Below are positions 14,491 to 27,499 of a stretch of DNA of 36,597 nucleotides, piece by piece. The notes beneath the pieces are model-generated. The model saw only the letters and a program-made list of their open reading frames with translations. It was not told where the DNA came from and searched no databases. The position numbers and the translations under genes are program-made. Numbering within the stretch: position 1 is the stretch's first letter; each line of letters starts with the position of its first letter. Origin of the DNA: Pseudomonadota bacterium (GTDB taxonomy: Bacteria > Pseudomonadota > Gammaproteobacteria > Burkholderiales > JAJZQI01); contig JAJZTZ010000010.1 in assembly GCA_021847305.1 (NCBI GenBank), forward strand, positions 1 to 36,597. The letters are read 5' to 3'.

Positions 14491-14581
14491 GGAGAGGTGG
14501 ATGAGTGGTTTAAGTCGCACGCCTGGAAAGCGTGTTTAGGGTAATACCCTAACGCGGGTTCGAATCCCGCCCTCTCCGCCA
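14491..14581 (+). tRNA. tRNA-Ser (anticodon GGA), CCA encoded
   Basis: Acceptor GGAGAGG/CCTCTCC, anticodon arm CACGC-CTGGAAA-GCGTG, long variable arm TTTAGGGTAATACCCTAA, T-arm GCGGGTTCGAATCCCGC, GCCA end. Confidence 0.96.
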
Positions 14582-14584
14582 AAT
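14520..14584 (+). repeat. attL: 65-bp direct repeat inside the 3' part of tRNA-Ser
   Basis: CGCCTGGAAAGCGTG...CTCTCCGCCAAAT identical to 27435-27499; integrase lies beside the distal copy. Confidence 0.95.
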
Positions 14585-15971: not shown

Positions 15972-16811
15972 ATGTCAGGGATCATTCACCACGAGGGTCG
16001 GCCTGTTTTCTCTGTCCCGCTTCATCGGGCTGTTATTCGAGACGTTCGCCTGAGCTGGGGAGCACGAGGGCTGTTTGTCTTTCTGTGGGACTTGCCAACT
16101 GGTTGGGCAGTATGCATTGAGCACCTCTGCACAATGTCTCCAGAGGGGAGGGACGCGGTACGGTCACGCCTGAAGGAACTTCAGACCGTTGGGGCGCTGA
16201 GAATAGAGGGTATCAGGGGAGAGTCGGGGCTGCTGAATGGGAGGCGGTGGGTGATTGTTTCCCCAGAATCGTGGGCAAAAGAATTTCCTCTTTCCATACA
16301 GCAGGGCCAGGAAGAACAAAGCCAAACCACCGAAAAGCGGGTTTTCCGATTTTCGGTTAACCCGACTATCGGGGAATCCAACACTAAGGGTCTCCAAGTA
16401 TTTAAGGTTCTGCAAGAAGAAGCAGCACTCGCCACAGTCAACCAAAGCCAAAGTGCTGCTGCACCTGAGAGGAAAAAGAGAAGGCTAAGAAGATCTGGGA
16501 TAGTGACCTGGACACCTGAGGACCAGGAACAGGCCGGCCTGGTCGAGCAGAGCAGCGGCGAGCATGAAATCTTGGCTGCAGTTCAAGCCCTCGTAGCTGC
16601 AGGCAAGGAGCCTGTTCCGGGGCTTGTTCAGCAGCAAATTCAAAAGCAACAACTCACCCAAAAGAAACAAGACCAGCAGAGGGCCGCAGAGGCCGCTCAC
16701 GCGGCCGCGCTTGCTCGTGGCATGGATCATGACCCAGAGGCCCTGGCTAAAGGCCAGCAGCTCATTGAAAAGGTCAGGAATGGCAAGAGATCAGGTGAGG
16801 CGACCACATGA
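15972..16811 (+). CDS. winged-helix/HTH protein, possible replication- or mobilization-associated
   Basis: N-terminal wHTH-like region (LSWGARGLFVFLWDLPTGW...DAVRSRLKELQTVGALRIEGIRGESGLLNGRRWVIV), Gln/Lys-rich C-terminus. Confidence 0.5.
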   Translation: MSGIIHHEGRPVFSVPLHRAVIRDVRLSWGARGLFVFLWDLPTGWAVCIEHLCTMSPEGRDAVRSRLKELQTVGALRIEGIRGESGLLNGRRWVIVSPESWAKEFPLSIQQGQEEQSQTTEKRVFRFSVNPTIGESNTKGLQVFKVLQEEAALATVNQSQSAAAPERKKRRLRRSGIVTWTPEDQEQAGLVEQSSGEHEILAAVQALVAAGKEPVPGLVQQQIQKQQLTQKKQDQQRAAEAAHAAALARGMDHDPEALAKGQQLIEKVRNGKRSGEATT

Positions 16812-17317
16812 AAAAAATCCCATTCATTTTTGTAACCCTCCTGGTCCTGGCTGTCTCAACCAGCCCAGCACTGGCGTTTGATCGCAGCTCTGCACTGGTT
16901 GACTGCCAGTCGATAAAGGATGCAGCCACAGCCGCACAGCACAGATACGTTCAGATATATCAACCCCAGATAGACCCTACCAAGACATTCGATGATGCAA
17001 CAGCGTCCTGCGTCTCCACCATTCAAAACGTAAATTTGAGCATTCCCAGTATCTGGGATGGTGTGCTGCAGGGGGTGGCCAATCAAGTCCTCAACAGGGC
17101 CTGTCAGGCTGCACAGGCGCAGTACAACAAGGCCGTGAACGACGCGATGCAGTCTGTTAATGGCACGCTTGGGCAGATCCCTGGAGCTGGCGTGTCGGCT
17201 CAATACGGCGGGCAGCCGGGAACGTCCCCGTCTACCACGGTTACAACCGATAACGGCGCGGCCATGAAGGGTGCGGCCACAAAGTCTGTCGACCGTGTAA
17301 TCAATTTTTTTCAGTGA
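16808..17317 (+). CDS. secreted/periplasmic protein of the mobilization operon
   Basis: Signal peptide MKKIPFIFVTLLVLAVSTSPALA; ATGA coupling with upstream gene. Confidence 0.6.
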   Translation: MKKIPFIFVTLLVLAVSTSPALAFDRSSALVDCQSIKDAATAAQHRYVQIYQPQIDPTKTFDDATASCVSTIQNVNLSIPSIWDGVLQGVANQVLNRACQAAQAQYNKAVNDAMQSVNGTLGQIPGAGVSAQYGGQPGTSPSTTVTTDNGAAMKGAATKSVDRVINFFQ

Positions 17318-17324
17318 GGCAAGA

Positions 17325-17642
17325 ATGAGCGCCGGTGAACTTCAAAAGCTCAGGGAAAAACGCGAAAGAATTGAGCGCCGCATGCGCCAGATTCAATCCC
17401 GCCAGAAAGCCCTGGACCGGAAAGCCCGTACCCACAAATTAATCCTCTGGGGAATCGTCGTGGAGGGGTTACTTCAAGATCAAATTTTAGAGACTGAAGA
17501 GTGGATTTCCGCGTGTAAGAAATACCTCAAATCTGACCGCCAAAAATCAGAGGCGACAGCAAATCTCCTTTCCTGTTCTTCAGAACAGGCGCACTTACCT
17601 GTTTTTCCTGCTGAAAAACAGTGCGGGCCTGCAGCCGGCTAA
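17325..17642 (+). CDS. mobilization accessory protein, TraD/MobC-like coiled coil
   Basis: LREKRERIERRMRQIQSRQKALDRKARTHKLILWGIVVEGLL resembles small TraD-type mobilization proteins upstream of MobA/MobL relaxases. Confidence 0.55.
   Translation: MSAGELQKLREKRERIERRMRQIQSRQKALDRKARTHKLILWGIVVEGLLQDQILETEEWISACKKYLKSDRQKSEATANLLSCSSEQAHLPVFPAEKQCGPAAG
17572..17621 (-). other. candidate oriT, IncQ/RSF1010-type nic region
   Basis: Minus strand: CTGTTTTTC-AGCAG-GAAAAACAG-GTAAGTGCG/CC; perfect 9-bp inverted repeat (17599-17607/17613-17621) next to the nic-like core; second 8-bp inverted repeat (17572-17579/17582-17589) on the other side; relaxase starts at 17658. Confidence 0.75.
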
Positions 17643-17657
17643 AAACAGGGGCGAATC

Positions 17658-19937
17658 GTGGCCGATGGTTTTTATCACCTCAGCATTAGGCGTGGCAGCA
17701 GATCACAGGGTCTGCTGGCAGCGCGAAAGCATGATTACATCATGCGGCTGGGTGATTTTGCCAAGCGTCACGAGGGGGCGCTGGCATTTTCTGAAAGTAG
17801 AAATATGCCTGCGTGGGCGGCTGACAATCCCCGCCAGTTCTGGACGGCCGCAGATGAATTCGAGCGTGCAAATGCAACTGTTTACCATGAAGTTGAATTT
17901 GCCTTGCCTCTCCAGCTGAGTTTCGACCAGCAAATTGAGGCCGTCAGAGAATTTGCCAGTCAAATCTGCGGTGAAAGTCACCCGTACAGCCTGGGCTTAC
18001 ACGACAACCAAGGCAACCCACATGTGCACTTGATGTTCAGTGGGCGGATGCTCGATGGCGTAGAGCGCTCGGCGGAGCAATTTTTTAAAAGGTACAACTC
18101 AAAGTCACCAGAAAAGGGCGGCTGCAAAAAAGCCGCGAGCGGGGAGGCGCGCGGCCAGGAATGGGTCCAAGAAGTGCGTGCTGCCTGGACACAGGTCGCA
18201 AATCGCCACCTGCAAAAGGTGGGCGCAAAAGAGCGAATTGACCACAGGTCATATGCCGATCGTGGAATTCAAAAAACACCAGGCAAACACGTTGGCCGTA
18301 AGGCCGCCGGCATGGAAAAGCGCGGCAAAGTGAGCCGGCGCGGCCTTAAAAACCGCGAGATTCAACATCTTTCCAGCCAACTTGATCACACCCAAAAGGA
18401 GATCTCAAAATATGAGCGTCACGAACGAACTGGAGCAACACGTCGCCCAGCAGCAAGATCCAGTAACACCAAACACCCCCGCCATTTCACTGCATGGAGA
18501 AACGACCGCCCTGCGGATCGTCCAGGATTGCGGACTAGCAGGGCTCGTGCAGTCCATATGCCTGTCCTGCGATCACAGAGTATTGGCCAGGGACACAAAC
18601 AAGCACGCGACACTCTATTGCAAAGAACTATTCAGGGATTTGGAGGGGGTGGCGATCGTGGACTGTACCAGTCACAGCCAGAGCAGCGAGTAATCGACTG
18701 CGCTGGCGATCCGGCACGTCGCCAACTGTTCAAAGCCAAGCTATTGCAAACGGCCTACCGTCAGCAAATCAGCGTAGAGCTAAAAGAGCGCCTGCACTTC
18801 GTGGACGCAACAAGGAACGATCAGATTCTGATCCGCCTTAAAACCCAAAATGGCATCACCACCATTACGGACCATGGGGAAAGAATGGCAGCCAGTTCTG
18901 ATGACCGTGTAACGGTCATCAGCATGGTCCAACTCGCCCGCGCAAAGGGCTGGACCCGCTTATCCATTAACCCCGGCAGCACCCCTCAATTTCGTGCAGC
19001 ACTGCAAGCCGAAGCGGTCGCCCAGGGCTTGCAAATCATTGACCCAAGTTCATCCACCACTCTCAAGGAGGAGAAGACCATGAGTGAAAAACAAGGTGCA
19101 GCAGCAGGCATGGGCATGATGCCCATGCCCGGCGCAGCCGAGCCAGAAAAGAGACAGGACAGCACCACCCCAGCCTGGGTGGTGCCGCTTTCCATCAAAC
19201 TGGAAGAATTAAACCGCCAAGCCGAGGAGTACAGCCGCCGCCGGCGCGAGCTTGGTGAAGCTGAGGACCTCAAAAACGTGCGTCTGAATGCCGTGCTGGC
19301 GCACGCCGACGAGGCCGCCAGGGCGGCATTCGATGAATTCGACAAGCTGCCCCAGCCTGGCACACAAAAAGGCGTTCTTTCCTTCCTCAATCGCGCAGCT
19401 GAGCAAAAGACTTTTGCCGCCGCAAAAGCTCGCGCCGAGGCGCATTGGAATCGAACCTGCCAACACCCCGAGGTGGTGGCCACGATCAAGGCGGCAAAGG
19501 CCAGAAACGACGAACGATTCCAGCTTCAACAATTCCAGATCCCTCAGACCGAACTGGCTATCAAGCACGCCCGTCGCCTGTTGGCAGACCCCGCCGCCGG
19601 CGACAAAGAATTACGCGCCAGCTGGGCGCGATCAAAAGCCATGAAAACCCCGCTGCCTTCCTGGCAGGAAGAGGTCATTGCCCCGATTTTCAAAAGCGAG
19701 GAAGACGGACGTCAGGCCGAGCTCGATGCAGCCTTCAAGCAGCGCCGCGAGCTGGAAGACTCCCACCAAGCCAAAGCCGATGCCCTGCAAAAGCAGCTCG
19801 ACGCCGGCAATCTGCCCGAAGACGTGCAGCAAGAGCTGCAGCAACGTGTGAAGTTTTACCAGGCGCTGGCCGACGGTCGCACCCCGGAGGAGGCCGAAGA
19901 AATTTCAAAAAAATCTGATGCCCCACGCCCGCGATAG
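17658..19937 (+). CDS. mobA: MobA/MobL-family (MOBQ) relaxase with LPD7-like domain
   Basis: Candidate catalytic Tyr27 (KHDYIMRLGDF), ATVYHEVEFALP, HxH motif NPHVHLMFSGR; LPD7-like RLHFVDATRNDQILIRLK...QLARAKGWTRLSINPG. Confidence 0.85.
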   Translation: MADGFYHLSIRRGSRSQGLLAARKHDYIMRLGDFAKRHEGALAFSESRNMPAWAADNPRQFWTAADEFERANATVYHEVEFALPLQLSFDQQIEAVREFASQICGESHPYSLGLHDNQGNPHVHLMFSGRMLDGVERSAEQFFKRYNSKSPEKGGCKKAASGEARGQEWVQEVRAAWTQVANRHLQKVGAKERIDHRSYADRGIQKTPGKHVGRKAAGMEKRGKVSRRGLKNREIQHLSSQLDHTQKEISKYERHERTGATRRPAARSSNTKHPRHFTAWRNDRPADRPGLRTSRARAVHMPVLRSQSIGQGHKQARDTLLQRTIQGFGGGGDRGLYQSQPEQRVIDCAGDPARRQLFKAKLLQTAYRQQISVELKERLHFVDATRNDQILIRLKTQNGITTITDHGERMAASSDDRVTVISMVQLARAKGWTRLSINPGSTPQFRAALQAEAVAQGLQIIDPSSSTTLKEEKTMSEKQGAAAGMGMMPMPGAAEPEKRQDSTTPAWVVPLSIKLEELNRQAEEYSRRRRELGEAEDLKNVRLNAVLAHADEAARAAFDEFDKLPQPGTQKGVLSFLNRAAEQKTFAAAKARAEAHWNRTCQHPEVVATIKAAKARNDERFQLQQFQIPQTELAIKHARRLLADPAAGDKELRASWARSKAMKTPLPSWQEEVIAPIFKSEEDGRQAELDAAFKQRRELEDSHQAKADALQKQLDAGNLPEDVQQELQQRVKFYQALADGRTPEEAEEISKKSDAPRPR
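18412..18693 (+). CDS. candidate ORF nested out of frame in the relaxase gene
   Basis: ATG at 18412 preceded by AAGGAG (18396-18401, 10-nt spacer); 93 aa MSVTNELEQHVAQQQDPVTPNTPAISLHGETTALRIVQ.... Confidence 0.3.
   Translation: MSVTNELEQHVAQQQDPVTPNTPAISLHGETTALRIVQDCGLAGLVQSICLSCDHRVLARDTNKHATLYCKELFRDLEGVAIVDCTSHSQSSE
19081..19937 (+). CDS. candidate in-frame internal translation product of the relaxase gene (C-terminal 285 aa)
   Basis: AAGGAGG (19065-19071) 9 nt upstream of ATG 19081; product starts MSEKQGAAAGMGMMPMPG. Confidence 0.45.
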
Positions 19938-19981: not shown

Positions 19982-20224
19982 ATGAAAACCAAAACTCAAA
20001 TTCGCCGCAATCAGGTCTCGATCAGCCCGGTCCTGGTGGAGGATCTGTTTCACCAGATCCCTGGCTGTGAGCACCAGCCTCCAGCTTATGCTGCAGCGAT
20101 GGCCGCGCTGGTACACGAAGATCTGCAAACAATTGCGACTGCATACCGCCATTCCTGCACCACGCGCACAGGCCGCGAGATGGCAAAGCTGTTTATGCAA
20201 AACATGATTCAGGGGGATGAGTGA
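19982..20224 (+). CDS. hypothetical protein (80 aa)
   Basis: ATG 19982, in operon, overlaps next gene start. Confidence 0.55.
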   Translation: MKTKTQIRRNQVSISPVLVEDLFHQIPGCEHQPPAYAAAMAALVHEDLQTIATAYRHSCTTRTGREMAKLFMQNMIQGDE

Positions 20225-20688
20225 TGGGACTGATGACTAAAGTTGGCAAGGGAGCCGGCTGGGTGGGGCGCAGCTGGGCATACTCAATTGGCCTGACCAG
20301 CCTTGCCGGCAGCTTTGCCCGAATCGGCCGCAGCATGTCTGCTGCGGTGCGGGCCGGAGCCGGAGTTAGCAAAAAACAGTACCGGGTTGAGACCTTCCAG
20401 GCCGCTGTCGAACGGCTCGCCCTGACGGATAATGATCTGGCCGAGCGGTTTTCACAGCTTTCCGGTATCTCGTTTTTATATGGACTTGTTACTGTGATTG
20501 CACTGGTGTTTTTTCTTCTCACCCCATTGTCTCAACATCCCATCAACAATTTCATGATGAGCCTGGGTGTGGCGTGGATGTCCGGTGCGAAATTCGTCAC
20601 AACCCGCTTCAGAATGGCGCAGATCCGCTCGCACGAGCTGTTTGGGTTTGGCGATTGGTTTTTCGGACGGACTGGAGGCAAAAAATGA
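20224..20688 (+). CDS. TraX-like conjugation membrane protein
   Basis: FQAAVERLALTDNDLAERFSQLSGISFLYGLVTVIALVFFLL; small TM protein upstream of TraY/DotA as in IncI traX-traY order. Confidence 0.5.
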   Translation: MGLMTKVGKGAGWVGRSWAYSIGLTSLAGSFARIGRSMSAAVRAGAGVSKKQYRVETFQAAVERLALTDNDLAERFSQLSGISFLYGLVTVIALVFFLLTPLSQHPINNFMMSLGVAWMSGAKFVTTRFRMAQIRSHELFGFGDWFFGRTGGKK

Positions 20689-20849
20689 AAATCATCAAGC
20701 TCAAAGCGCCGCTCATCAAAACCCGTATTGCCCGCCAGTTGCACAGCCCTGTGCCTCTCTGGCTGGCCAACTTCGCCGTTGGCTTGCTGGGAGTCTCGGC
20801 CTGGGTCATCCTGATCTTGGACTGGATGGGCAAAATCCATGTCTACTAA
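20685..20849 (+). CDS. small single-TM protein (54 aa)
   Basis: MKIIKLKAPLIKTRIARQLHSPVPLWLANFAVGLLGVSAWVILILDWMGKIHVY; overlaps both neighbours. Confidence 0.6.
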   Translation: MKIIKLKAPLIKTRIARQLHSPVPLWLANFAVGLLGVSAWVILILDWMGKIHVY

Positions 20850-23106
20850 ATTTTTCAAATTTATCACTACCACCGCGCTGCTGGCCGTCGCTGGCAGCGC
20901 TTTTGCCGCCGATGGCGGATTACACGCCTTCACTCCGCCACCAGGGGATGCTGCGGTTGACGTGTTGGCGCAAATCTTCGGTTCATCCATCATTTCTTCC
21001 ATCATTGGAGGAGGTGACGGCGGGGCAAACGATACTGTGCTCGGTTCAGCCATGCGTGTGTTCAATGGAGCCGTCCTTTTCCTGGGTATGATTTTTGTGG
21101 GATACACAACCATTAAAGGGACGCTCGACAGCGCACACGATGGCGTCTTGTTGGGCCGCAAGATGTCCTCTTTGTGGGTTCCGCTCAGAAACGTTGGATC
21201 CACGGCTTTTTTATTGCCCTTGTCTTCTTCTGGTTATTCGCTCATTCAAATCACCACCCTATGGCTTTGCCTTCAGGGTATTGGCATGGCCGATGCTGTC
21301 TGGTCAGCTACTATGAGCAGCCTACAGCGCGGCAATACGCTCGCGCCGGTGTCCGTGCCTTCGGCCAGATCCTTGGCCGCATCTATCCTGCGGTCTGAAG
21401 TCTGTATGGAGGCCTATAACGCCCAGATAAAAGCCGGCGGCGGCAATGATCCGCTTGTTAAGGTGGTGAGAAGCACTCAAACATTATCCAATACCGGGGA
21501 AATCAACGGCGGTGGCGTAGCGGGGGCGATGTCGCCTGCGTATGGCTTGGCCCAGCTGGCATCTTCAACGGCCAACTCGGTCTATTCAGTCACAACCTAT
21601 TCCTGGGCGTCTGACGGCTATGTGAATAAGGATATTTGCGGCTCACTCTCCTGGACAGAGTCGGCTCAATCCGCCATGGGGGCGGGTGATGCAAACGTCG
21701 CTAAGACCCCCATCCTCAATGCGCAATCACGCGCGGTGGAGCAACTGCTTGCTGAGCTGCAGCCGGTGGCTGCTGGCATTGTGTCCAGTGGCGGCAAACT
21801 GCCGGCACCGGGCGTACTCGAACAAGCCGCAGCGCGGTATGAGCAGACAATCGCGAAAGCTGCATCGCAAGCCGTGGCTCAAGGCCCGGAAGCAGGCAAG
21901 ACGCTGTTTGAATCGTATGCCAAGGATGCCGGGTGGCTGTACGCGGGCACCTGGTACAACTCCATTTTAAGATACCAGAACGCAGTGCAATCCAGCGTGA
22001 ACACGTTGCCTGTGACCAAGCCAGTTGCCCTCGATCCTGCTGCTCAGCAAATCATGATCATGATGCCAGGGTACTCGGATTTCATGAATAAGACCGAGGA
22101 ATATATCAAGGACCGCTCAGCCGCCCCACAGGCGGCGGTGGATGCTGAGACGATGGACGCCTCTCAGATCCGCAGCGCTGACGATGCCTGGCGACTTTTG
22201 AGCGCCCCTGTGTTGAGCCTTGTTTCCAAGACAACCAAAGCGATTGCCGGAGCCAACACCAGCCCCTTGTTGCAGATGCAATCCTTGGGCAATGATCTCG
22301 TCTCGGCTGGGGTCGCGGTCAAGGGTATCCAGTTTACCGTCGCAGGCCTGGCCGGCTCGCGGGCTGCGGATTGGACCATCGGCAATGCCTTTAACGTGTC
22401 CCGCGCATTCGAGACCACATACGATTCAATAAGGGTGATTACAAACGGTCTTTGGGTCGCGGGTGTTATTTTGGCGTATTACTTGCCGGCAATGCCCTTT
22501 ATCTACTGGATAACTGCTGTAGCTCGATATTTTATTAGCGTTTGTGAGGCCGTTTTGGCCTCTCCGCTAATGGCCGTATTTATGGCAGCGGAAGGCCATG
22601 ATGTTGTGGGTCGATCTGGGCCGGGTATGCTTTTGTTATTGAGCGTTATTATCACACCCACCCTCCTGTTATTTGGTCTGATTTTCTCCATTTCTTTGAT
22701 GAGTCCCTTGGCGGGAGTGGTGAACAATGGATTTCTGTTGCTGGTTTCTCAAATCACGGGCAGCGGGTTTCTAGGCTTGTTCGGATATATGGCCGTATGC
22801 GTCTTATATGCCGTCATCATGGTTACTGTGATCCATTTTTGCTTGGCCCTCGTGCATGGGCAGACAGCCACGGCAGTGATTCGATGGGTGGCATCACAGG
22901 CTGGAGCAGATGGGGCTGTCCAGGGAGAGCAAGCCAATAGACAGCTCAATGCGGTGGCCAACATGGGTGGGCAGATGGGGGCGGTGAGTCCTCAGCAGGG
23001 GGGCGGTAGTAAGCAAGGGCGCGATGGAGGCGAATCTACAGGGGTTTCTGCGTTGGGGAAAAATGGGGTCTCTAATGCGGATCTGATCAGTGGCCCGAGG
23101 GATTGA
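20839..23106 (+). CDS. DotA/TraY-family type IVB conjugation membrane protein
   Basis: 755 aa, signal peptide, multiple TM; VFNGAVLFLGMIFVGYTTIKGTLDSAHDGVLLGRKMSSLWVPLRNVGSTAFLLPL and C-terminal YYLPAMPFIYWITAVARYFISVCEAVLASPLMAVFMAAEGHDVVGRSGPGMLLLLSVIITPTLLLFG are DotA/TraY-like. Confidence 0.82.
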   Translation: MSTKFFKFITTTALLAVAGSAFAADGGLHAFTPPPGDAAVDVLAQIFGSSIISSIIGGGDGGANDTVLGSAMRVFNGAVLFLGMIFVGYTTIKGTLDSAHDGVLLGRKMSSLWVPLRNVGSTAFLLPLSSSGYSLIQITTLWLCLQGIGMADAVWSATMSSLQRGNTLAPVSVPSARSLAASILRSEVCMEAYNAQIKAGGGNDPLVKVVRSTQTLSNTGEINGGGVAGAMSPAYGLAQLASSTANSVYSVTTYSWASDGYVNKDICGSLSWTESAQSAMGAGDANVAKTPILNAQSRAVEQLLAELQPVAAGIVSSGGKLPAPGVLEQAAARYEQTIAKAASQAVAQGPEAGKTLFESYAKDAGWLYAGTWYNSILRYQNAVQSSVNTLPVTKPVALDPAAQQIMIMMPGYSDFMNKTEEYIKDRSAAPQAAVDAETMDASQIRSADDAWRLLSAPVLSLVSKTTKAIAGANTSPLLQMQSLGNDLVSAGVAVKGIQFTVAGLAGSRAADWTIGNAFNVSRAFETTYDSIRVITNGLWVAGVILAYYLPAMPFIYWITAVARYFISVCEAVLASPLMAVFMAAEGHDVVGRSGPGMLLLLSVIITPTLLLFGLIFSISLMSPLAGVVNNGFLLLVSQITGSGFLGLFGYMAVCVLYAVIMVTVIHFCLALVHGQTATAVIRWVASQAGADGAVQGEQANRQLNAVANMGGQMGAVSPQQGGGSKQGRDGGESTGVSALGKNGVSNADLISGPRD

Positions 23107-23564
23107 TCGTGCGCATCGATCGCATCGATCTAAAGGTGAACGTTTATGGGGGCACCCGTTCACGCGGGCCGGCCCTCCTTGCCTCTTCGCTCCCACTCGT
23201 GGCTTTGCCACCAGTTCCGCTGCGCGCGCTGCTTGCCGGGTTTGGAATCACCCTGCCTGCGACAGCGTGATGCCGAGAAGGACACGTTTTTTCGCACAGA
23301 GAGCGTACCACTCAACGCAAATCATCTCGCCGTGCCGTCCCAGACTCAAGGCACCGCTTCGCTTTCGTCCTCACCCGGTCCCCTACGGGGCTGCGGCTTC
23401 CGGGGCGAATCCTTGATTCTGTGTCGTCCCGTCGAGCTGATAGCTCATCGTGGTTCGCTCCGCGAAAAAATGTGGGAAGGGCAACAGCCAACCATCGGGT
23501 AAGTTAATGGTGGTGGTTCGCCAAGCAAGCCACGGCTCTGCCGGTTTGCTTGTCTCTATAACGG

Positions 23565-23700
23565 TGCGAAATGTCGCAACGAAATTAGAGAAAAACGGGA
23601 TGAAAGGGAATTCCGTTGCGCAATGCCGCAACAAAATTCAGTCGGTTCGCTCAGGAATCGGTGGAATTTCGAATTTCAGTGCGCAATAGCGCAACAAATT
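23565..23700. repeat. three palindromic ~22-bp repeats
   Basis: TGCGAAATGTCGCAACGAAATT (23565), TGCGCAATGCCGCAACAAAATT (23617), TGCGCAATAGCGCAACAAATT (23680); each with a hairpin-forming core. Confidence 0.75.
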
Positions 23701-23711
23701 GGAGGTGGATG

Positions 23712-24188
23712 ATGAGTGTACGAATTATTCGCGGTGAGCTGACCGTCACAGGGCCTTATAAAGACCACGGAGGCAGTGAGCCGAGTGCACGCTATGACTA
23801 CATGCGTTTCGTTGAATCGGGGCGCCAGGTTTATCTGCAAGACGTGGTTGTGCCGGCTTACATTGACTCCTTCATTCGTGCCGGTGTCCGTGCTGTATTT
23901 TATCTGGTTGAGCTGCGGTACCCGACGCTTTTCTTCTGCCGCAAATCGGTCTGGATGATGTATGGGGTGGAGATGGACGGCCAAGTGCACGAAGCGGTTT
24001 CTAAGGTGGCTCGGCGCGTGAGTGGTGGCAATCTGTGGGAGGCGGTGCAATACGCGCTTGTAGGCCTTGTTACCCTGCCTTTGGCGGGGGTTGGAATACT
24101 CCTGCTGATCCTTGCCGCCAGGACGCTGGCTGTGACCTTGCCTGTGGTGAAAATGCGGGCAGCCCTGGCTGATGGGGGCGGGGTATGA
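23712..24188 (+). CDS. membrane protein downstream of TraY (position analogous to excA)
   Basis: GGAGG RBS at 23701; MSVRIIRGELTVTGPYKDHGG...; TM LVTLPLAGVGILLLILAARTLAV. Confidence 0.6.
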   Translation: MSVRIIRGELTVTGPYKDHGGSEPSARYDYMRFVESGRQVYLQDVVVPAYIDSFIRAGVRAVFYLVELRYPTLFFCRKSVWMMYGVEMDGQVHEAVSKVARRVSGGNLWEAVQYALVGLVTLPLAGVGILLLILAARTLAVTLPVVKMRAALADGGGV

Positions 24189-24469
24189 AACGGGGAATTT
24201 TGTTGGTAGGTTTATTGGCCTGCGTGTCGGTGGCCAACGCTGACTCGGGTGCAGCAGCCGCAGATCAAGCTGCGAGCCTGGCTCAGGTGCAAGCCGGATA
24301 CCAGATCAATTGGGAAAAAATTCAAACGGCGTGCGGTCAAGCGCCTGACGGATTGTCTTGCGGCACAAACAATCCCTGTACAGAGGAAAAATTGGAGCAA
24401 TCACGCGCCTGGACGAAATGCGCGATGGCGCAGCTCATGCCCACTCCGGCTGATGTATTGGCGAAATGA
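24185..24469 (+). CDS. small secreted Cys-containing protein
   Basis: Signal peptide MKRGILLVGLLACVSVANA; four Cys in the mature part; ATGA overlap with the upstream gene. Confidence 0.6.
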   Translation: MKRGILLVGLLACVSVANADSGAAAADQAASLAQVQAGYQINWEKIQTACGQAPDGLSCGTNNPCTEEKLEQSRAWTKCAMAQLMPTPADVLAK

Positions 24470-24862: not shown

Positions 24863-25306
24863 TTAAAGGGCGAGAGTGGGGCTATGCTTTACTCTTAATT
24901 TACCTGCCACCAACTCTTCACCGTCAGCGATGACCTTTGCTATCAAAGTCATTTCATTTTCAATCGCAAATGGAACGATATTCAGATTGGCGCCAATTGT
25001 TAGAATGGTTATGGGATCTTCTGGCGATGTATTCTCCACCGCTTGGGCACTGAGGGTCGCCAGTTCGCTGCCAGGTAGTTCAATATCTTGTAAAATCGTG
25101 CCATTTGACCAAGCAACCACTATTTTCATTGATTTGAATGGTTGGTCTACTTCGGTTGTGCAATAAATGGCGAGAGACAGTTTGGGTAAAAAAGTAGGCA
25201 TGATGGGGACGTGCAATTCCCCGCGATACATGCCCATTAGGCTTAATTTGTTACCTACTTCAGCCCGAATGTCGTCACAGAAATGACAATACGCGTACCT
25301 GTTCAT
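24863..25306 (-). CDS. DUF6941-like protein (element cargo)
   Basis: MNRYAYCHFCDDIRAEVGNKLSLMGMYRGELHVPIMPTFLPKLSLAIYC. Confidence 0.55.
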   Translation of the reverse strand: MNRYAYCHFCDDIRAEVGNKLSLMGMYRGELHVPIMPTFLPKLSLAIYCTTEVDQPFKSMKIVVAWSNGTILQDIELPGSELATLSAQAVENTSPEDPITILTIGANLNIVPFAIENEMTLIAKVIADGEELVAGKLRVKHSPTLAL

Positions 25307-25308
25307 GT

Positions 25309-25779
25309 TTATTTGGCCTCAGCGATGATTTCAGGCTTGCGAGTTGCCTCGACGATCCTCCATAGGTCGTCCATGCTAATGCCAAGGGCACCTGAGAGCT
25401 TATGAGCTGTATCAAATTTTATGTTAATCAAGCCAGCTTCAATTTTTGCTACATGTGGTTGGCTTGTTCCGATCAATTCTGCCAGCGCGCTTTGTGATAG
25501 ACCCTTAGCCAAACGTGCCTTCATAAATGAATCTGCCGGCGAGACTTCATGAATCTCATTTGCCAGCTGTTTTCTGGCGACCAGCATTCCTGCCCGAAAT
25601 TCGGGATTGCTCTTTTCACGCTCATTGATCAAGCTGCTAAGTGAACGACGCTTCCCGTGGGAAGACAGTTTTTCCTGAACTTTGCATTCCTTGAGTGCGA
25701 GCGCATCCGACGTGGCAAATGATGGCTGCTTAAATACATTTACAAGCTCAGTTAATTTTTGGTAAGCCAAGCTGCTCAT
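25309..25779 (-). CDS. HigA-like XRE antitoxin
   Basis: ARLAKGLSQSALAELIGTSQPHVAKIEAGLINIKFDTAHKLSGALGISMDDL; downstream of a RelE/HigB-like gene. Start uncertain (ORF open to 25842). Confidence 0.75.
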   Translation of the reverse strand: MSSLAYQKLTELVNVFKQPSFATSDALALKECKVQEKLSSHGKRRSLSSLINEREKSNPEFRAGMLVARKQLANEIHEVSPADSFMKARLAKGLSQSALAELIGTSQPHVAKIEAGLINIKFDTAHKLSGALGISMDDLWRIVEATRKPEIIAEAK

Positions 25780-26203
25780 ACTCGGCCATAACTCGTTTTG
25801 TGATCCAGTGGTTAGGCTCATAGTCATAGTAATACTCTCCACTCAAATCTACTTGTATTTGCTGGTCTTCTGGTTTTTTTACAACGACAGCTAACAAATA
25901 TATTTCTTCTTGTTGCCCATCATACGCATATAAAACCCTGTATTTGCTTAATCCTTTGAAAAAAGGCCTTAGTCTATATACATTAAATCCACGTCGTTGA
26001 AAAAGCACCACTCCACGGACTGAAAAATGCGGACTGTAGTGTTCCGTTTTCAATTTTGTCAGAGACCACTGGGCGTCTTCATTGGCTACCAATTCACTCA
26101 AGAATGCCTCAATAAGGTGTTCGTCGCCCCTCCGATATTCCCTTTTTGAGGTAATACCTGCCAGGTCCTTATAAAAGTAGTCGCCCGGATAAAGATCAAT
26201 CAT
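25748..26203 (-). CDS. RelE/HigB-like toxin
   Basis: RRGFNVYRLRPFFKGLSKYRVLYAYDGQQEEIYLLAVVVKKPED; overlaps antitoxin. Confidence 0.65.
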   Translation of the reverse strand: MIDLYPGDYFYKDLAGITSKREYRRGDEHLIEAFLSELVANEDAQWSLTKLKTEHYSPHFSVRGVVLFQRRGFNVYRLRPFFKGLSKYRVLYAYDGQQEEIYLLAVVVKKPEDQQIQVDLSGEYYYDYEPNHWITKRVMAEYEQLGLPKIN

Positions 26204-26322: not shown

Positions 26323-27351
26323 CTAACCGAGTTTCTTTGCCAGATCCTCGACCCTGAAATGTGTATACCGTTTCAACATTTGAAGCGTCTTGTGTCCACT
26401 GACGGTGGCAAGCTCAAGTAACGAGAAGTCGCCCCGCTCGGCTAGGCGTGACAGCGCCTCATGCCGGAGATCATGAAAAGTGTAGTCCTTGATTCCGGCT
26501 CGACTGCAGGCGTAGCTAAAGGCATGGTATAGAGTCATGCGCTGAACGGGGAGGACGGCTCCTGACAGGCTGGACGGTAATGCATTCAAGACGGCGATAG
26601 CCATGCTAGATAGAGGAACGGCTCGCGGTTCCTCGTTTTTGATCTTCTCCGAGTCTGTCAGCATGGCGAGCTGCCTCTTCTTGTCGATTTGCCGCCATGT
26701 CAAAGAGAGTAGCTCCCCTTGACGCATGGCTGTTTCGACGGCCAGCTGTACCGCAGGCCACAGCCATGGATTGCGTGAAGCTCTGCACTCTTTCTCGAGT
26801 GTCTTCCATTCTTCCGCAGAAAGCCGGCGATCACGGCCTTTGCCATCAGAGGGTTTGCGGATTTTTTTGATCGGGTTGCCGCGCGGGAGCACAATTCCCT
26901 TTTCGTTCTGAGCAAAGCCCAGCACCTTTGAGAGCATGTACAGCTCTTTTCGAACCGTTGATTCTCCGACGGCCGGGCGGTCATCGCTGCCTTTGAGTCG
27001 TTTGTCGCGATAGCTGGCGATCAGTTTTTGATCCAGAGCGGAAAGGCTGTAGTCGCCGAGTGCCTCATCCAGCCTGGCGAGCTGGTACCGCCAAGCTTCC
27101 TTTTCGTCAGTGCGTATACGGTAGTGCTGTGGGGCAAACTCGGCTTTGAAATCCGCGATTAAATCCCGCAAGGTAGTTCGCTCTGAGTCGCTGGTGCTGG
27201 TGAAGGTGCCGGCATCCATTTCCCGCTCTGTGGCGCGAGCCCATTTTTCGGCGTCCTCTCGATACATGAATGTCTTCGTTTGGCAAGGGAATCCCTTTCT
27301 GCGGATTTGGACATGCCACTGGTAATCGCCTTTTTTTCGGATGGTAGCCAT
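26323..27351 (-). CDS. int: tyrosine recombinase/integrase
   Basis: MATIRKKGDYQWHVQIRRKGFPCQTKTF; catalytic-region motifs ETAMRQGELLSLTW, FHDLRHEALSRLAERG, SGHKTLQMLKRYTH; adjacent to attR. Confidence 0.95.
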   Translation of the reverse strand: MATIRKKGDYQWHVQIRRKGFPCQTKTFMYREDAEKWARATEREMDAGTFTSTSDSERTTLRDLIADFKAEFAPQHYRIRTDEKEAWRYQLARLDEALGDYSLSALDQKLIASYRDKRLKGSDDRPAVGESTVRKELYMLSKVLGFAQNEKGIVLPRGNPIKKIRKPSDGKGRDRRLSAEEWKTLEKECRASRNPWLWPAVQLAVETAMRQGELLSLTWRQIDKKRQLAMLTDSEKIKNEEPRAVPLSSMAIAVLNALPSSLSGAVLPVQRMTLYHAFSYACSRAGIKDYTFHDLRHEALSRLAERGDFSLLELATVSGHKTLQMLKRYTHFRVEDLAKKLG

Positions 27352-27367
27352 GAAATTCTCCCCGTAG

Positions 27368-27387
27368 TGTGCCAAAATTGTGCCAAT
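27368..27387 (+). repeat. candidate integrase arm-type site, right end
   Basis: TGTGCCAaaatTGTGCCAat; same spacing as the left-end pair at 14651-14670. Confidence 0.6.
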
Positions 27388-27434: not shown

Positions 27435-27499
27435 CGCCTGGAAAGCGTGTTTAGGGTAATACCCTAACGCGGGTTCGAATCCCGCCCTCTCCGCCAAAT
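27435..27499 (+). repeat. attR: 65-bp copy of the tRNA-Ser 3' part
   Basis: Identical to 14520-14584. Confidence 0.95.

Follow-up and report, generated by a model that had tools for sequence, protein, structure and literature searches.

A predicted RSF1010/pSC101-type transfer origin in a tRNA-Ser IME that encodes TraX- and TraY-like proteins

The plasmids RSF1010/R1162 (IncQ1) and pSC101 have a transfer origin (oriT) in which a hairpin is followed by TAAGTGCG/CC on the strand opposite the relaxase gene, and their relaxases have the same six catalytic residues. pSC101 also has a 3' inverted repeat. The RSF1010 sequence CAGTTTCTCGAAGAGAAACCGGTAAGTGCG/CCCTCCC is cleaved in vitro by MobA (PMC4814116). 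The IncP island of Burkholderia glumae 5091 and GISul2 (PMC5704250) are helper-dependent IMEs that lack a full T4SS and encode a polytopic channel subunit with a putative exclusion gene nearby. They carry a MOBP relaxase or no relaxase and TrbJ/TrbL of MPF_T; the IncP island is the one with its own relaxase (PMC5704250). SGI1, whose helper is IncC, encodes an alternative channel subunit of the VirB6 type and F-type TraN/TraH/TraG; neither a relaxase nor a relaxosome protein can be recognized in it. The mobilizable 19-kb Xanthomonas plasmid pXCV19 (NC_007505) has a MOBQ relaxase and oriT and a lone DotA/TraY gene. R64 (IncI1) is fully conjugative and has the gene order traX, traY, small membrane protein gene.

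We analyzed 36,597 nucleotides of a Burkholderiales genome (the window) that contain an element sharing features with each of these systems. The element has the hairpin, core, and six catalytic residues of RSF1010/R1162 and pSC101, but it is a chromosomal IME rather than a replicon, its relaxase has an LPD7-type C-domain, and it encodes TraX- and TraY-like proteins. Like the IncP island, it has its own relaxase, and like that island, GISul2, and SGI1, it encodes a channel subunit; it differs from them in combining a MOBQ relaxase with TraX/TraY of MPF_I. The relaxase of pXCV19 is 26% identical to the window relaxase and lacks the LPD7 C-domain, and its MobC-like gene is divergent. The window shares the R64 gene order, whereas its TraY is 22% identical to R64 TraY and ExcA is not recognizably related to a window product.

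The element is bounded by a 65-bp exact repeat. The attL copy (14520..14584, plus strand) contains the 3' part of a tRNA-Ser(GGA) gene (14491-14581), and repeat comparison places attR at 27435..27499 (plus strand), giving an element of 12,915 bp. The site is empty in a genome of the same genus (G001), where the left and right flanks are joined directly at tRNA-Ser. A tyrosine integrase gene adjoins attR (26323..27375, minus strand; Phage_integrase 1.7e-22), and its product is 41-47% identical to those of elements in G225, G062, and C157. The integrase, the direct repeats at a specific site, the empty site, and an own relaxase and oriT without a complete T4SS identify the element as an IME. A near-colinear element in G225 contains the integrase, a gene at the Exc position, TraY, TraX, the relaxase, the MobC-like ORF, and the same oriT. 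A cassette on the integrase side (24863-26203) holds a Gp49-like gene (weak match), an HTH_3 gene, and a gene for a 147-aa protein, and may include a HigBA-type toxin-antitoxin pair; relatives of the HTH and 147-aa genes lie beside the G062 integrase (38-39% identity).

The oriT at 17572-17621 on the minus strand was proposed in a sequence-only reading of this DNA, and its coordinates and letters were reproduced on re-reading. It lies 69 nt upstream of the MobA/MobL relaxase gene. Minus strand 17621-17572 reads CTGTTTTTC-AGCAG-GAAAAACAG-G-TAAGTGCG/CCTGTTCTGAAGAACAGG, with CCTG following the predicted nick. An inverted-repeat search located the distal arm of IR1, CTGTTTTTC, at 17613..17621 and the proximal arm, GAAAAACAG, at 17599..17607 (both minus strand); the arms match at 100% across a 5-nt loop, in agreement with the perfect 9-bp hairpin described in that reading. 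The nic core TAAGTGCG (17590..17597, minus strand) is letter for letter the core that MobA cleaves in RSF1010 (PMC4814116), and its position at 17597-17590 predicts a nick between 17590 and 17589. Three features had been overlooked. A perfect 8-bp palindrome, CCTGTTCTGAAGAACAGG, with the structure CCTGTTCT-ga-AGAACAGG, lies directly 3' of the predicted nick (17572..17589, minus strand). At the hairpin's 5' edge, CGCACT (17620..17625, minus strand) is complementary to AGTGCG in the core and may form an outer stem. Finally, the oriT sits within the 3' end of ORF 17325-17642.

This overlap fits the idea that hairpin and core arose by chance or as a coding feature of the ORF, or that they form a transcription terminator, which we find scarcely credible. 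A core preceded by an equally good hairpin was found in 0 of 300 simulated first-order Markov windows, which held 465 occurrences of the bare core. The layout is also conserved across MOBQ loci that differ in their hairpin arms, and a terminator at this position would truncate the co-directional ORF around it. The window contains TAARYGCGC once. Folded as ssDNA, the oriT region has a free energy of -16.2 kcal/mol (z = -4.95), and none of 200 shuffles was equally stable. A core-only search (12 letters, 2 mismatches) was not significant; thus, the significance of the oriT rests on the combination of core and hairpin and on conservation. The tRNA was the sole match in an Rfam scan, and a blastn comparison of the oriT region with plasmids yielded chance matches only.

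The oriT was compared with those of IncQ1 plasmids (L056-L060), pSC101 (L054), five MOBQ loci from genome_contigs (L004/L006, L008, L009, L010, and L023), and the orthologous G225 island (L042), which belongs to another family. At all loci a hairpin or inverted repeat is followed by TAAGYGCG/C on the strand opposite the relaxase gene, and the window site has the MOBQ1 arrangement of an inverted repeat followed by TAARTGCG/CC on that strand. pXCV19 shows a matching layout by eye. The same core and hairpin or inverted repeat thus occur in the IncQ1 plasmids and pSC101, in keeping with the RSF1010/R1162 and pSC101 layout given in the sequence-only reading, and the G225 orthologue retains both. 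The 3' inverted repeat is significant (p at most 0.002) in the window, G225, pSC101, and L004, and suggestive in L009 (p = 0.036). In IncQ1 the 3' repeat is, by eye, a bulged version, CCCTCCCGTAC-aaa-GTACGG-t-CGGG, that the score used does not credit. The CGCAC/GTGCG complementarity has p values of 0.027 in the window, 0.006 in G225, 0.003 in L008, and <0.001 in pSC101, and it is absent from the IncQ1 oriTs examined. In L023 the core has GCGCG and the flank CGCGC (p = 0.07), which is a compensatory change. The predicted nick on the minus strand at 17590/17589 agrees with the sequence, with the published cleaved RSF1010 substrate, and with conservation in the orthologous element. These comparisons and the element boundaries indicate that the site is very probably an RSF1010/pSC101-type (MOBQ) oriT in an IME. 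Among MOBQ systems such an oriT is ordinary; what differs is its setting.

The ORF that overlaps the oriT (17325..17642, plus strand) encodes a small 105-aa coiled-coil protein that is 57% identical to its G225 orthologue. Alignment with IncQ1 MobC by hhalign gave E 1.4e-5 (prob 80) for this coiled-coil protein, and DUF3847 matched weakly. Kinship to IncQ MobC, judged from this hhalign match, is moderately supported. A tblastn search of plasmids with the ORF returned no relatives.

The relaxase gene (17658..19937, plus strand) encodes 759 aa with a MOBQ catalytic domain (about 1-242) and an LPD7 C-domain (Pfam MobA_MobL 1.6e-32, LPD7 6e-12). The N-domain matches the MobA R1162 structure 2NS6 with E 4.9e-46. 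Residues Y27, E78, E80, H115, H122, and H124 correspond to MobA Y25, E74, E76, H112, H120, and H122 in the catalytic set taken from PMC6856555, and all six are invariant between the window and G225 relaxases. The gene next to the oriT therefore encodes a MobA-type relaxase with the Y, E-x-E, and H...HxH signature of MOBQ1. The N-domain is 64% identical to G225, 43% to IncQ1, and 39% to pSC101, and the C-domain is 34% identical to G225. The shared oriT core, the 43% identity of the catalytic domain, and the MobC-like neighbor would also be expected of a canonical IncQ/RSF1010 mobilization region, that is, an integrated IncQ plasmid or its remnant. This origin is very unlikely. No IncQ replication genes (RepA/RepB/RepC) were recognized among the element ORFs, and the integration is site-specific with clean att repeats. 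The MobC-like gene is co-directional with the relaxase gene and overlaps the oriT, whereas IncQ1 mobC is divergent, and the C-domain is of the LPD7 type rather than MobA-RepB'. Hence, the IncQ/RSF1010-type oriT upstream of a MOBQ relaxase that the sequence-only reading proposed stands as a MOBQ oriT and relaxase, but not as part of an IncQ plasmid: the tRNA-Ser IME, the non-IncQ C-domain, the orientation of the MobC-like gene, and TraX/TraY all differ.

On contig C51 of the same MAG (L033), a sister element has a MobC/NikA-like gene and, after it, a gene for an 850-aa relaxase whose N-domain is of the MOBP type (Relaxase 5e-17). The C-terminal half of this protein is 39% identical to that of the window relaxase, and its gene is followed by relatives of TraX and TraY that are 34% and 46% identical to those of the window. 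The two loci thus differ in the catalytic part of the relaxase and in the oriT, and they have the remainder of the transfer block (C-domain, TraX, and TraY) in common. Pairwise identities among the window, G225, and C51 C-domains are similar. Searching 387 class-level genomes with the A1 profile gave no additional copies of the C-domain, the C-domain showed no similarity to R64 NikB, and no relative of the relaxase was found in viral_contigs. A G067 relaxase with a Toprim domain (L043 1120-3945) contains a 63-residue stretch that is 47% identical to the window C-domain, a third catalytic context. Several GCGCTTCGCTTG copies upstream of the C51 MobC/NikA-like gene (L033 6500-6650) may be part of a MOBP-type oriT.

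The relaxase gene is followed by homologues of I-type T4SS genes. The TraX/IcmV-like gene (20221..20688, plus strand) matches NF038219 (IcmV) with E 2.2e-7 at 31 bits, below the NCBIfam curated cut-off of 100; it lies next to traY, and relatives of its product occur in 42 plasmids, mainly of Pseudomonas/Xanthomonas. The DotA/TraY family protein (20839..23106, plus strand; 755 aa) matches TIGR04346 with E 1.5e-106. It is 39% identical to TraY of a Pseudomonas MPF_I plasmid, and its best plasmid matches are in the Pseudomonas/Xanthomonas MPF_I group; no relative was found in viral_contigs. Thus, the element has selected MPF subunit homologues that include a polytopic channel protein. Upstream of the MobC-like gene, 16808..17317 (plus strand) encodes a protein with a likely signal peptide that is kin to a protein encoded beside IcmW in Pseudomonas/Xanthomonas MPF_I plasmids (38% over 152 aa to Xanthomonas plA; relatives in 39 plasmid records). 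The closest relatives of this protein and of the TraX-like protein are in those plasmids. TIGR02525 (TraJ) was dropped as a marker because it is non-specific, with matches in 13 of 14 control genomes.

A small membrane protein is encoded after traY, at the excA position (23616..24188, plus strand), and is 31-32% identical to a C157 protein and 30% to a G225 protein. It showed no similarity to R64 ExcA by hhalign (E 0.21, prob 0.3) and had no plasmid relatives; it is a candidate exclusion protein by position only. The next gene (24185..24469, plus strand) encodes a small protein with a likely signal peptide that is 65% identical to its counterpart in the C157 element. Between traY and these genes, about 370 bp (window 23180-23546) are 85% identical to C157 (L034 1078-1451), compared to at most about 69% in detectable nearby coding DNA. 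This stretch has no Rfam match and was found in none of 12 relatives searched; it may be a regulatory or recombination site.

TraY was found in 14 of 400 genomes of the order, and 12 of these 14 lack TraU, a count that would fall if some TraU were too divergent to be found or lay on missing contigs, although the G216 assembly is one contig and that of G225 two; only G278 and G327 have both. A search with R64 TraU found nothing in the source genome (G000), G001, G062, G225, G067, or pXCV19, and it found two control plasmids near 1e-90. These counts suggest that TraY alone is a poor marker of a conjugative system. Some lone TraY genes lie near MOBP relaxases in G062 and G259 and near a NikB-like relaxase in G176, and pXCV19 unites lone TraY with a MOBQ relaxase. 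A related IME in G062 (L036; G062:C34, 2500-17500) encodes TraX, TraY, a VirD4-type coupling protein of its own, a MOBP relaxase that lacks LPD7, and an AAA_25 ATPase similar to an IncQ RepA helicase. The few MPF_I genes left on the window element and a truncated TraY fragment in G001 could mean that an integrative conjugative element lost its other MPF_I genes and left TraX and TraY behind as decaying remnants, with a relic or opportunistic oriT. We judge this unlikely since the 755-aa TraY ORF is intact, the G225 and C51 elements retain relaxase, TraX, TraY, and integrase as a set at a divergence of at least 50%, and lone TraY recurs on islands with differing relaxases and integrases and on pXCV19.

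The course of transfer, namely nicking, transfer itself, and the identity of the helper, is one that we infer. The tyrosine integrase would excise the IME from tRNA-Ser(GGA), and the MOBQ domain of the relaxase would bind the proximal arm of IR1. The relaxase would then cut the minus strand after TAAGTGCG (17590/17589) via Y27 and remain on the 5' end. The strand would exit leftwards, the attL side first and the integrase next, and the relaxase gene would enter last, as the sequence-only reading had predicted from the orientation; the published RSF1010 substrate and conservation in the orthologous element agree with this order. Because the element encodes no mating channel, the complex would depend on a helper, for which an I-type (MPF_I) conjugative system is the likeliest candidate. 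No T4CP was detected in the element, so the T4CP of the helper would have to serve. No helper T4SS was found in the source genome, an 85%-complete MAG. In G327, of the same order, TraU and two TraY genes lie within about 28 kb of one contig (L096, G327:C6:1318001-1337999), a candidate I-type conjugative helper.

The TraX- and TraY-like proteins of the element probably replace or supplement the copies of the helper and so improve its own transfer. By analogy, there is about an even chance that they remodel the helper channel, a reading based on three precedents. In SGI1, TraG takes the place of the IncC subunit, remodels the channel, and disables entry exclusion (PMC5389848). IncI ExcA targets TraY (PMC11493245). 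The traX-traY-excA genes have diverged together between pOXA-48 and pCTX-M3, two plasmids that do not exclude each other (PMC12365149). Escape from the TraY-directed entry exclusion of the helper is possible, though less likely. TraX and TraY could instead be defensive and, rather than aid transfer, keep out incoming I-type plasmids or titrate the helper. IMEs with exclusion factors but no channel parts are known (PMC11493245), and a small membrane protein gene follows traY. We consider a defensive role quite unlikely, since TraY is the donor-side target in known systems rather than a recipient-side exclusion factor, and the small membrane protein lacks similarity to ExcA.

The element extends the non-canonical MPF-carrying IMEs (PMC5704250) by combining MOBQ with MPF_I, as opposed to MOBP or no relaxase with MPF_T or F-type parts. 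A search of papers from outside subscription journals found no description of TraY-bearing IMEs. We tentatively propose a recurrent class of helper-dependent elements in which a solitary TraY of the DotA class, in many cases accompanied by TraX, may re-key I-type/IVB channels and bypass TraY-directed exclusion, and in which the oriT and catalytic domain may form a swappable MOBQ/MOBP cassette on a conserved LPD7 C-domain. This setting would extend T4SS subversion, shown for SGI1 and the F-type IncC system and proposed for IncP islands and MPF_T, to I-type/IVB systems. ExcA-TraY exclusion is genetically defined in these systems, and the idea is directly testable there. The MOBQ and MOBP relaxases that share this C-domain are a natural experiment for which part sets the choice of oriT and which the choice of channel.
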